Shown one piece after another: positions 28,875 through 39,892 of a stretch of 64,000 bases of DNA. The stretch is taken from contig NZ_JQFJ01000002.1 in NCBI RefSeq assembly GCF_000763945.1, positions 930,001 to 994,000 of the forward strand. The letters run 5' to 3'. The position numbers and the translations under genes were made by a program. Below the pieces are notes generated by a model that saw nothing but the letters and a program-made list of their open reading frames with translations, was not told the origin of the DNA and made no database searches. The DNA comes from Sphingopyxis sp. MWB1. GTDB lineage: Bacteria > Pseudomonadota > Alphaproteobacteria > Sphingomonadales > Sphingomonadaceae. Position 1 is the first letter of the stretch; the number at the start of each line of letters is the position of its first letter.

Positions 28875-29100
28875 TTCGATCGTCCTGTCTTTTAAGCGTC
28901 CAATGTCCAGTCAGATGGGTCGCCTTCCCCGGCGCGTCAAGCGTGCTTTGGGCAAGTGTCCGCCCACCCTCCCCGACCATGTCGGCGAAAGGCGGAAAGG
29001 AACGGCGCATCTGTCCGAATGGGCGGCCTTTAAACCCGCCATCCGCCAATGGCAAGCGCTTGCAACATGAGGGCGGCGCGGAAGAGCGGCAAAGAGCCGG

Positions 29101-29421
29101 TCAGGCGGGCGAGGAGAGTTTCATCAGCACCAGCCCGGACATGATCAGCAGCGCCGCGGTAATCCGCATCGCGCTGGCCTGCTCACCCAGCACCATGATG
29201 CCGACCAGAAAGGCGCCGACCGCGCCGATGCCGGTCCAGATGGTATAGGCGGTGCCCAGCGGCAGGCTGCGCATGGCCAGCGCGAGCAGGCCAAAGCTGC
29301 CGATCATCGCGATCAGGGTCACGGCGGACGGAAGGGGCCGGGTAAAGCCGTCCGACAGCTTCATCGCATAGGCCCAGACAATTTCGAGCAAACCGGCAAG
29401 GCCGAGGTAAATCCAGGCCAT
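29101..29421 (-). CDS. sugE: Small multidrug resistance protein of the SugE/Gdx guanidinium exporter type
   Basis: A 106-residue four-helix membrane protein. The start MAWIYLGLAGLLEIVWA holds the coupling Glu at residue 13 and the W-A pair typical of Gdx/SugE; the WTGIGAVGAF segment distinguishes Gdx from the EmrE branch (which has WxGxG differently arranged). The predicted activity is proton-driven export of guanidinium. GAAGGAG precedes ATG 29421; GTG-initiated extension to 29466 would run through a leader hairpin. It is inserted between tRNA-Trp and secE. A candidate guanidine-sensing leader precedes it (next entry). Confidence 0.9.
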   Translation of the reverse strand: MAWIYLGLAGLLEIVWAYAMKLSDGFTRPLPSAVTLIAMIGSFGLLALAMRSLPLGTAYTIWTGIGAVGAFLVGIMVLGEQASAMRITAALLIMSGLVLMKLSSPA

Positions 29422-29504
29422 GGGCGCCTCCTTCAACAGGGCGCCGGGCCGTCCCGGACCTGACACCCGCCGCGGACGGGCGCGACGGGCGGGGACGTGG
29501 CCCC
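29422..29504 (-). promoter_or_regulatory. Candidate guanidine-II-like (mini-ykkC) leader upstream of sugE
   Basis: Read on the minus strand, two hairpins precede sugE. The distal one (29491-29504) is GGGG/CCCC closing the loop CCACGT. The proximal one (29444-29457) is a 5-bp stem CCGGG/CCCGG closing ACGG, exactly the ACGR loop of guanidine-II RNAs. Between the latter and ATG, GGCGCC (29440-29445) can pair with GGCGCC (29423-29428), holding the Shine-Dalgarno in its loop; that pairing shares two bases with the ACGG hairpin, so the two are exclusive. The distal loop deviates from ACGR, so this is a candidate only. Confidence 0.42.
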
Positions 29505-29520
29505 TTGTTCATCGACGGCC

Positions 29521-29596
29521 TGGCAGGGGCAGCAGGATTCGAACCCGCGACCCTCGGTTTTGGAGACCGATGCTCTACCAGCTGAGCTATACCCCT
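29521..29596 (-). tRNA. trnW: tRNA-Trp (anticodon CCA)
   Basis: A complete cloverleaf on the minus strand: acceptor AGGGGTA/TGCCCCT, D arm GCTCAGCTGGTAGAGC, anticodon stem TCGGT/ACCGA around CTCCAAA (anticodon CCA), T arm with GGGTTCGAATCC, discriminator G and an encoded CCA (29521-29523). Its position near secE-nusG is usual in alphaproteobacteria; here sugE intervenes. Confidence 0.97.
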
Positions 29597-29677
29597 AGGC
29601 CGGATTGCGCCCCTAGCCCGATTGCAAGAGCGGGGCAAGAGGGATGACGACGGGTTGCGCGGTGCAACGGGCCTGTT

Positions 29678-30685
29678 ATGCGCCAAGCCATGCCTTCGCA
29701 GCCGCCCTCCCCCGCACCCGCACCGCCTGCCACTGCGGCTGCCCCTGCGCTGTCTGGCGCCGCCCCAGCCTCTGCGCCGCAAAATTATCTGGGCGGCATT
29801 GCGCTGCGCCTGCTGGCGATGATCGCGCTGGCGCTGATGTTCGTGCTGGTGAAATATATTGATGCGGCGGGCATCCACATATTGGAAAGCCTGTTCTGGC
29901 GGCAGGCGCTGGTCCTGCCTTTCCTGCTGCTGTGGATTTTCGCATCGGGCGCGGGGCTCGCTTCGCTGCGCACCCGGCGGATCGGCGCGCACGCCCGGCG
30001 GGCGATGATGGGGCTGTTCGGCATGGCCTGTAATTTCGGCGGGATGATCTTCTTGCCGATGGCTGAGGCGACAACGATCAGCCTGTCGGTGCCGATCTTC
30101 GCAGTGATTTTCGCCGCCCTGCTGCTCGGCGAACCGACGGGGTGGCAGCGGTGGAGCGCGGTGATCATCGGCTTTGTCGGCGTGCTGATCGTGCTCGCGC
30201 CCGGCGCGGGCGTTGCGGGCGGCTTTTCCGGCGAGCATGGGATGGGGGTCGCCATAGCGCTCGGCGGCGCGCTGATGACCGCGCTGATCACCATTGCCGT
30301 GCGTGACCTCGGGCGGACCGAAAATTCGACGACCATCGTTTTCTGGTTCAGCCTGATTTCACTGGTGCCGCTGGGCATCGCCCTGCCCTTTGTCTTTACG
30401 CCGCACAGCTTTGGCGAGTGGATGCTGCTGATCGGGCTCGGCCTGTCGGGGGCGGTGGTGCAGATGGCGCTAACCGGGGCGCTGCGCCTCGCCCCCGTCG
30501 CGGTGGTGATCCCGATCGACTATAGTTCTTTGCTCTGGTCCATAGCCGCGGGCTGGTGGTTTTTCGGCACCCTGCCCAGCGAAACGACGTGGATCGGCGC
30601 GCCGCTGATCGTCGCCAGCGGGCTGTTCATCGCCTGGCGCGAACATCGCCTGCATCTGGAACGCGGCAAGGAGGTCGCCGCCTGA
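29678..30685 (+). CDS. EamA/DMT-family transporter
   Basis: A 335-residue inner-membrane protein with ten hydrophobic helices in two EamA repeats (about 40-170 and 190-320). A 35-residue Pro/Ala-rich N-terminal tail precedes the first helix. GEPTGWQRWSAVIIGFVGVLIVLAPG closes repeat 1 and PIDYSSLLWSIAAGWWFFGTLP lies in repeat 2. The family exports or imports metabolites such as amino acids or nucleotide sugars; substrate is unknown. The start codon is uncertain (29678 or the Met four codons later). It is divergent from the tRNA. Confidence 0.88.
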   Translation: MRQAMPSQPPSPAPAPPATAAAPALSGAAPASAPQNYLGGIALRLLAMIALALMFVLVKYIDAAGIHILESLFWRQALVLPFLLLWIFASGAGLASLRTRRIGAHARRAMMGLFGMACNFGGMIFLPMAEATTISLSVPIFAVIFAALLLGEPTGWQRWSAVIIGFVGVLIVLAPGAGVAGGFSGEHGMGVAIALGGALMTALITIAVRDLGRTENSTTIVFWFSLISLVPLGIALPFVFTPHSFGEWMLLIGLGLSGAVVQMALTGALRLAPVAVVIPIDYSSLLWSIAAGWWFFGTLPSETTWIGAPLIVASGLFIAWREHRLHLERGKEVAA

Positions 30686-39594: not shown

Positions 39595-39657
39595 TTTCAG
39601 TCTCCCGCGGTTGACATGGCGAGGCGCGGCCCGGTGCTGCCCTTTTTGCCATGCCCC

Positions 39658-39892
39658 CTCTGTCACGGGAACCTGAGAGTTTCCCCCTGCCTGTCCTGGG
39701 GTGCGGGACGGCGGGGTTACCCCTTCGGTGGCCTCCCCCCTCCCGGCTTGCGGGTCAGCGAGGCGCTTTCCAGAGTGTCCATTCCAGCCTGCGCGGTCCT
39801 TTGACCTGAGAGTTTCCGGGGCGGTTGCTCCTTCGGTGGCGGATCGCCCTTTCGGGCGTCCGCGCTCTCCCGCGCGGCCGGTCGAATCCCGT
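39658..39892 (-). promoter_or_regulatory. Tandem glycine riboswitch upstream of gcvT
   Basis: On the minus strand two glycine aptamers follow each other. Each has the conserved GGAAACTCTCAGG (complement CCTGAGAGTTTCC at 39672-39684 and 39805-39817) and the CCACCGAAGG element (complement CCTTCGGTGG at 39722-39731 and 39830-39839). The 5' arm GGAGAGCGCG near 39861-39871 begins the first aptamer. Glycine binding is expected to raise gcv expression; no clear terminator follows, so translational control of gcvT is the likely mode. There is no coding gene in this stretch. Confidence 0.95.

Follow-up and report, generated by a model that had tools for sequence, protein, structure and literature searches.

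A widespread alphaproteobacterial sugE leader that looks like a guanidine-II relative with one rebuilt loop

The leader of a sugE gene in Sphingopyxis sp. MWB1 looks like a member of a widespread, unannotated type of RNA that is akin to the guanidine-II riboswitch but has one of its two ligand-binding loops rebuilt. The gene lies on the minus strand of a 64,000-nucleotide stretch of the genome (here the window; contig NZ_JQFJ01000002.1, positions 930,001 to 994,000), and all coordinates below are those of the window. Comparison of related leaders indicates that this is a real, widespread structured leader and that it is related to guanidine-II. It is probably a cis-acting translational ON riboswitch for guanidinium, derived from guanidine-II, and is classed here as a variant that would work as guanidine-II does, with guanidinium as its presumed ligand. 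No description of the variant was found in the open-licence PMC literature.

The minus-strand order of the locus is tRNA-Trp, a gap of 16 nt, hairpin P1, a middle hairpin, hairpin P2, a stem that would cage the Shine-Dalgarno (SD) sequence, and sugE. The tRNA (29521-29596, anticodon CCA) was identified by Rfam (RF00005, 69.9 bits at 29524-29596) and by ARAGORN on the extracted window locus (L006). P1 (29491-29504) reads GGGG-CCACGU-CCCC, its hexaloop (29500-29495) replacing the ACGR tetraloop of guanidine-II. The middle hairpin (29466-29489), delimited by alignment and minimum-energy folding, varies in sequence and length across relatives. P2 (29444-29457) reads CCGGG-ACGG-CCCGG and carries a canonical ACGR loop (29452-29449), as seen in the sequence, the Rfam match and the alignment. 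The predicted cage pairs a 5' arm GGCGCC (29440-29445), whose two leading bases are common to P2, with a 3' arm GGCGCC (29423-29428), and the SD sequence itself is AAGGAGG (29427-29433). The sugE gene (29101-29421, start codon at 29421) encodes a 106-aa SMR exporter (PF00893, 98.5 bits). P1, P2 and both cage arms lie exactly where a sequence-only reading of the window had placed them; the tRNA, the middle hairpin and the capacity of P1 and P2 to pair with each other are additions to that reading. The combined P1-loop and P2 pattern occurs once in the window, compared with 0 of 100 shuffles; P2 alone, allowing at most one mismatch, was found once where 0.14 occurrences are expected, so that P2 by itself is weak evidence. 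Among the 27 motif-bearing leaders described below, 14, the window's included, have a tRNA-Trp less than 100 nt before sugE (ARAGORN). Given a gap of only 16 nt between tRNA-Trp and P1, tRNA and riboswitch probably share one transcript in the window, and tRNA processing would then make the 5' end of the riboswitch. A promoter scan of 29100-29900, a scan that is uninformative for this organism, found none. Elsewhere in the window, the minus strand holds a tandem glycine riboswitch (39650-39882; 58.2 and 48.9 bits).

The encoded protein appears to fit the Gdx (guanidinium exporter) branch of the SMR family. It scores 118.6 bits against the NCBIfam SugE model, below that model's cut-off of 126, and is nearer to SugE/Gdx-type chains than to EmrE: its best solved relatives are 8vxu (104 bits) and 6wk5 (101 bits; presumably Gdx-Clo), compared with 58 bits for EmrE. 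Alignments to the solved chains show that Glu13, Trp16, Ser42, Tyr59 and Trp62, which we take to be the residue list used for the Gdx branch, are all kept.

Conservation of the leader was examined in 60 genomes searched with the window protein, of which 34 matched; 30 loci, including that of the window, were compared. The whole layout is present in 27 of these 30 sugE leaders, namely the window and 26 same-genus relatives, which form the aligned set. The three others are a leader without the motif (L033); a leader from another family of the same order with a degenerate motif (L034; P2 loop ACAG, P1 shortened), possibly a decaying copy; and a locus without the motif in which the protein match begins only at residue 25, leaving the true leader position unsure (L035). 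Within the order, a model built on the 27 leaders (R1) has matches in 39 of 396 genomes, including that of the window, and in 13 of 84 genera. Scanning named genomes for the motif pattern gave at least 119 stretches. The matches listed comprise 80 loci with 82 pattern matches, 76 of them directly before a SugE ORF. Of the remaining six, two precede nuoA, and single matches precede a SugE start on a truncated stretch, a gene for a CBU_0592-family membrane protein and a UAAP1-like gene; the last is a chance match. Among the matches listed, an Oscillospiraceae record was rejected as a chance match, and the other records either carry alphaproteobacterial names or come from metagenomes and are named no more precisely than Proteobacteria or Pseudomonadota (L085, L101 and L144). 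The listed genera, which we take to belong to Alphaproteobacteria, include Sphingopyxis, Sphingomonas, Sphingobium, Novosphingobium, Caulobacter, Brevundimonas, Asticcacaulis, Phenylobacterium, Henriciella, Methylobacterium, Pleomorphomonas, Paracoccus, Siccirubricoccus and Belnapia. In the genomes sampled, the CCACGY loop was not seen outside Alphaproteobacteria, with those three listed records named to phylum only.

Several loci carry the RNA in other arrangements. In eight, a second copy lies just 3' of sugE and before nuoA (L075, at 1502-1594, L007, L009, L012, L013, L019, L028 and L187). All but L187 come from same-genus genomes; each of these seven carries another nuoA elsewhere, and four other same-genus genomes that were searched have one nuoA. 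In a Rhodovastum metagenome-assembled genome (L135, from 5274 onward), the variant RNA precedes two DUF1989 genes, one UAAP1-like (198.7 bits, NCBI cut-off 206) and one UAAP2-like and cut by the end of the stretch (277.6 bits, cut-off 284.7), presumably encoding carboxyguanidine deaminase subunits. Finally, locus L121 holds two sugE genes whose leaders have the P1 loops CCACGT and CTACGAT.

P1 covaries. The 168 distinct leaders include 156 with a CCACGT loop, and the pair flanking this loop is G..C in 132 and A..T in 24, with nothing else; for the loci drawn from the scan of named genomes, the pattern fixed the base 3' of the loop to C or T and left the 5' base free. When all 168 were re-anchored by a rule that itself demands a purine and a pyrimidine around the P1 loop, 142 had a G-C and 26 an A-U closing pair. 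The third P1 pair of the G-C class is A-U in 120 leaders, G-C in 10, G-U in 7, C-G in 3 and C/C in 2. In the A-U class, a one-base bulge is followed by a further four pairs that are intact in 25 or 26 of 26 leaders apiece and show exchanges of their own. In a covariation test on 50 diverse, hand-picked leaders, 21 cells showed change on both sides compared with 6.2 in shuffles; 0 of 500 shuffles reached as many, and slid controls gave 1 to 4. Two of five measures of pair count were not above shuffles in these 50 variants: the observed number of pairs with both-side change was reached in 90 of 500 shuffles and the observed number of pair types in 235 of 500. A slide by -1 gave a similar covariation score (0.157 against 0.152). 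The loop letters were examined separately in 196 genomes, with only GAGG/CCTC P1 stems accepted and any letter allowed at three positions of the P1 loop and at one of the P2 loop. This search returned 11 matches in 10 genomes, compared with 1 match for the reversed pattern; ten of the 11 read CCACGT with ACGG, and the remaining one falls within a long open frame.

P2, by comparison, is nearly invariant. Its ACGG loop, the conservation of which the sequence-only reading had singled out as a check, is identical in all 27 aligned leaders, and it recurs in all 10 non-coding matches of the free-base search even though one of its bases was left free. P2 is exact in 166 of the 168 leaders, partly through the design of the search; the exceptions are L056 (ACGC loop) and L064 (closing G replaced by T). 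As the stem never varies among the 50 aligned variants, P2 has no covariation support within this set; A-U replaces G-C as its third pair in the related loci L230 and L248/L249. Covariance support had been sought for the stems in general, and it was thus obtained for P1 and not for P2. P2 and the cage overlap by two bases (29445-29444), which end the one and begin the other, so that the full stems are mutually exclusive, just as had been proposed from these two shared bases. To assess the cage across leaders, the 157 of 168 with a recognised start codon were folded, taking the minimum fold of the remainder of the leader. In 142 of the 157 leaders, the cage fold pairs both G's of the P2 3' end; it pairs one G in 9 and none in 6, which argues that the overlap of P2 and cage is a conserved design and bears out the caging stem. 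Relative to shuffled 5' halves, the cage fold has a median z of -2.8, and z is below -2 in 114 of the 157. The SD itself has four or more of its six bases paired in this fold in 106 of the 157 leaders and not in all of them, so the tightness of the SD cover varies between leaders.

The match to the guanidine-II family itself is partial. At gathering thresholds, no Rfam family covers the window leader; a permissive search with RF01068 (guanidine-II) matches 29479-29444 at 15.8 bits (E 0.44), below the cut-off of 32. A guanidine-II model search, which had been suggested from the sequence, thus finds the P2 half, which alone fits well, and leaves the leader as a whole below threshold. Among 20 relatives' loci, RF01068 matches the leader at E ≤ 10 in 6, at 20.2 to 26.5 bits, all below 32. 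Relatives with canonical loops can also miss the 32-bit cut-off, as do L230, L242, L244 and L245 at 30.0-31.5 bits; L229 and L243 score 39.1 bits, which puts the five ACGR loci L229 and L242-L245 between 30.8 and 39.1 bits, and a search at E up to 1 leaves L231, L248 and L249 without an RF01068 match. At E ≤ 0.001, no RF01068 match was found in 62 of 63 genomes carrying the variant. The one match, in G028 (32.1 bits), falls within low-complexity sequence that offers no suitable gene start and was taken as chance, though this is not proven. The best other weak match in the window's own genome (L001, 18.7 bits) lies inside an open frame resembling a thiolase gene and was likewise taken as chance.

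Intermediates connect the variant to canonical guanidine-II. Model R2 matched 8 of 385 genomes of the class, comprising four variants, two with canonical loops (L229 and L230), one with a CAACGA loop (L231) and one chance match. Across the phylum, it matched 20 of 398 genomes, comprising twelve variants, four with ACGR loops (L242-L245), two with AACGA (L248 and L249) and two chance matches. Six candidates (L130, L232, L246, L247, L263 and L268) were set aside by eye as chance matches that lack P1/P2, lack a fitting gene start or are coding. The P1 loop is ACGA in L229, L242, L244 and L245, ACGG in L243, AACGA in L248 and L249 and CAACGA in L231, and the stem core GAGG/CCUC is common to the ACGA, ACGG, AACGA, CAACGA and CCACGY loops. 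L229 and L242 carry an ACGA loop on the P1 stem most frequent among the variants (CGAGG/CCUC), and their P2 is identical to that of the variants. This series of loops on one stem core suggests that the P1 loop was rebuilt on a standing guanidine-II frame with ACG kept, which agrees with the earlier suggestion that the first loop had drifted to CCACGT. From this likeness, with P2 identical or differing by the exchange of one pair, we infer common descent with canonical guanidine-II.

In its general plan, the variant (signature CCACGY...CCGGGACGGCCCGG) resembles guanidine-II: two short GC hairpins, the ACG trimer in both loops of the aligned leaders, a P2 with an ACGR loop closed by G-C, the presumed logic of SD release, the downstream gene families, and a P1 stem core and P2 in common with L229 and L242-L245. 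It differs in that P1 lacks the ACGR tetraloop and has instead a CCACGY hexaloop, with two C's before ACG and a pyrimidine for R, and in that the window's 15.8 bits fall short of the Rfam gathering score. Canonical guanidine-II is also present in the class, where RF01068 matched 27 of 289 genomes, 23 of them above the cut-off, at 30 loci; all 30 have ACGR in both loops, as the model favours. The genes downstream of these loci encode 16 SugE, ten UAAP-like, two PACE-like, one CBU_0592-family (L202) and one other protein (L203), the 14 non-SugE assignments resting on NCBIfam for L202, L204 and L214 and on inspection by eye for the rest. Genes for SugE, UAAP and CBU_0592 proteins thus stand behind both variant and canonical RNAs, and the variant, too, lies upstream of guanidine export or degradation genes. 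A consensus hairpin beside a consensus-breaking one is also described for guanidine-II variants of vertebrate sequences, whose authors say that the variant hairpins might together form a single pocket (PMC12335538, 2025). Those are vertebrate sequences, whereas the RNA described here is one specific variant found across many bacterial genera and before guanidine-related genes. The proposal of a variant guanidine-II-like leader before SugE therefore appears sound, with the ACGG loop and the cage pairing conserved in related leaders and P1 covarying.

According to Huang et al. (2017; PMC5486947), guanidinium in guanidine-II sits on the Hoogsteen edge of the loop G and the phosphates of A and C, stacked on the loop-closing G; direct contacts to the ligand are made within one loop, the partner loop orients the G through pairing, and the purines after ACG stack on one another. 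P2 keeps all of these pocket elements (G-ACGG-C). P1 keeps ACG and has a C in place of the stacking G and a pyrimidine in place of the purine. With neither G floor nor purine in the P1 loop, one ligand site would be expected rather than two, and the simplest reading is one predicted pocket on P2 with P1 as its kissing partner. In the proposed mechanism, P2 would be open when ligand is absent (in the window, mostly through a P1:P2 duplex) and the GG of its 3' end zipped into the SD cage, so that SugE would be poorly translated. Guanidinium would bind the P2 ACGG loop once the C-G of that loop pairs with the C-G of the CCACGY loop of P1. The kiss would stabilise P2, the two G's would leave the cage, and the freed SD would turn the exporter on. 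The ligand, the kissing, the direction of switching and the number of sites are thus predictions, set beside an observed anatomy, conservation, P1 covariation, cage, canonical-loop relatives and gene families. A fuller proposal, which we advance tentatively and which could well prove wrong, is that of a natural single-pocket, non-cooperative guanidine switch with a whole P2 site, the CCACGY loop of P1 as a dedicated kissing partner and a duplex OFF state in many leaders, replacing canonical guanidine-II in several alphaproteobacterial orders.

The duplex raises the alternative that no ligand is involved, with cage and duplex acting as a fixed or temperature-sensitive brake on sugE translation. 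The predicted minimum fold of the window is indeed the P1:P2 duplex plus the cage (-53.0 kcal/mol, duplex probability 0.98), in which 29503-29499 and 29496-29492 pair with 29455-29446 on the minus strand (10 bp with an AC bulge, the whole spanning 29446-29503). RNAalifold on the 27 close leaders also favours this long-range helix, and the duplex probability exceeds 0.5 in 85 of 157 leaders. The state with P1 and P2 hairpins lies above the minimum by a median of 4.9 kcal/mol, and by 11.5 in the window, in nearest-neighbour energies that exclude kissing and ligand. Conversely, in the A-U class the duplex exceeds 0.5 in 0 of 25 leaders and is broken without compensation; across the 50 diverse leaders, the helix shows no both-side change, and pair 9-62 is broken in 11. 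The long-range helix was accordingly rejected as a conserved structure and is regarded as no more than a possible OFF state, one that may be frequent and outside the conserved core. An attenuator would, moreover, have no need of invariant loop letters, and we regard such a brake as highly improbable.

It is unlikely, too, that the same RNA responds to another ligand, the rebuilt P1 loop having shifted specificity towards, for example, a substituted guanidine or another cation exported by SugE. Such a shift would suit the suggestion that riboswitch-associated SugE proteins may differ in substrate (PMC7736828), and the guanidine-II pocket being open on one side (PMC5486947). Loop types also cluster on the SugE tree (11 label changes compared with 23.3 when shuffled), a poorly resolved tree whose columns are too few to show how many times the loop changed. 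However, the canonical-loop loci L242-L245 precede SugE proteins that are 67-73% identical to that of the window and are placed among the variant-associated SugE on the tree, one variant precedes UAAP1/UAAP2-like genes, and the pocket nucleotides of P2 are all retained. A different identity is suggested by the six sugE-leader motifs of Lenkeit et al. (2020; PMC7736828), of which GGAM-2 to -6 are reported to show no guanidine binding in initial tests. GGAM-5, with 328 examples in Alpha- and Betaproteobacteria and sugE as its commonest gene, might be identical to the window RNA. On this view, the leader would be GGAM-5, or a comparable motif of sugE leaders without affinity for guanidine, and its structure would be protein-bound or regulatory in some other way. 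Compared by description only, the two share the association with sugE and the occurrence in Alphaproteobacteria, but GGAM-5 extends to Betaproteobacteria and precedes varied genes without a precise function, which speaks against identity. The four non-alphaproteobacterial matches of the phylum-wide R2 search have ACGR or AACGA loops, and in the class of G1084 only 2 of 175 genomes match, one canonical and one by chance. The authors of PMC7736828 describe the core of the guanidine-II pocket as two ACG trimers paired with each other, a feature that, in our view, they would probably have recognised. We therefore think it quite improbable that the leader is such a motif, and a guanidinium riboswitch derived from guanidine-II remains the preferred reading.

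The P1/P2 heterodimer that the guanidine-II switching model needs was still a matter of question in 2020. A conserved lineage with one apparently intact pocket would be a natural experiment on this heterodimer and on the need for both pockets, and it lets researchers ask whether one intact pocket suffices to sense guanidine. The variant would also add SugE, UAAP1/2-like proteins, a CBU_0592 membrane protein and, in Sphingopyxis, an extra nuoA to the guanidine network, from genomes in which the Rfam guanidine-II model finds nothing convincing.
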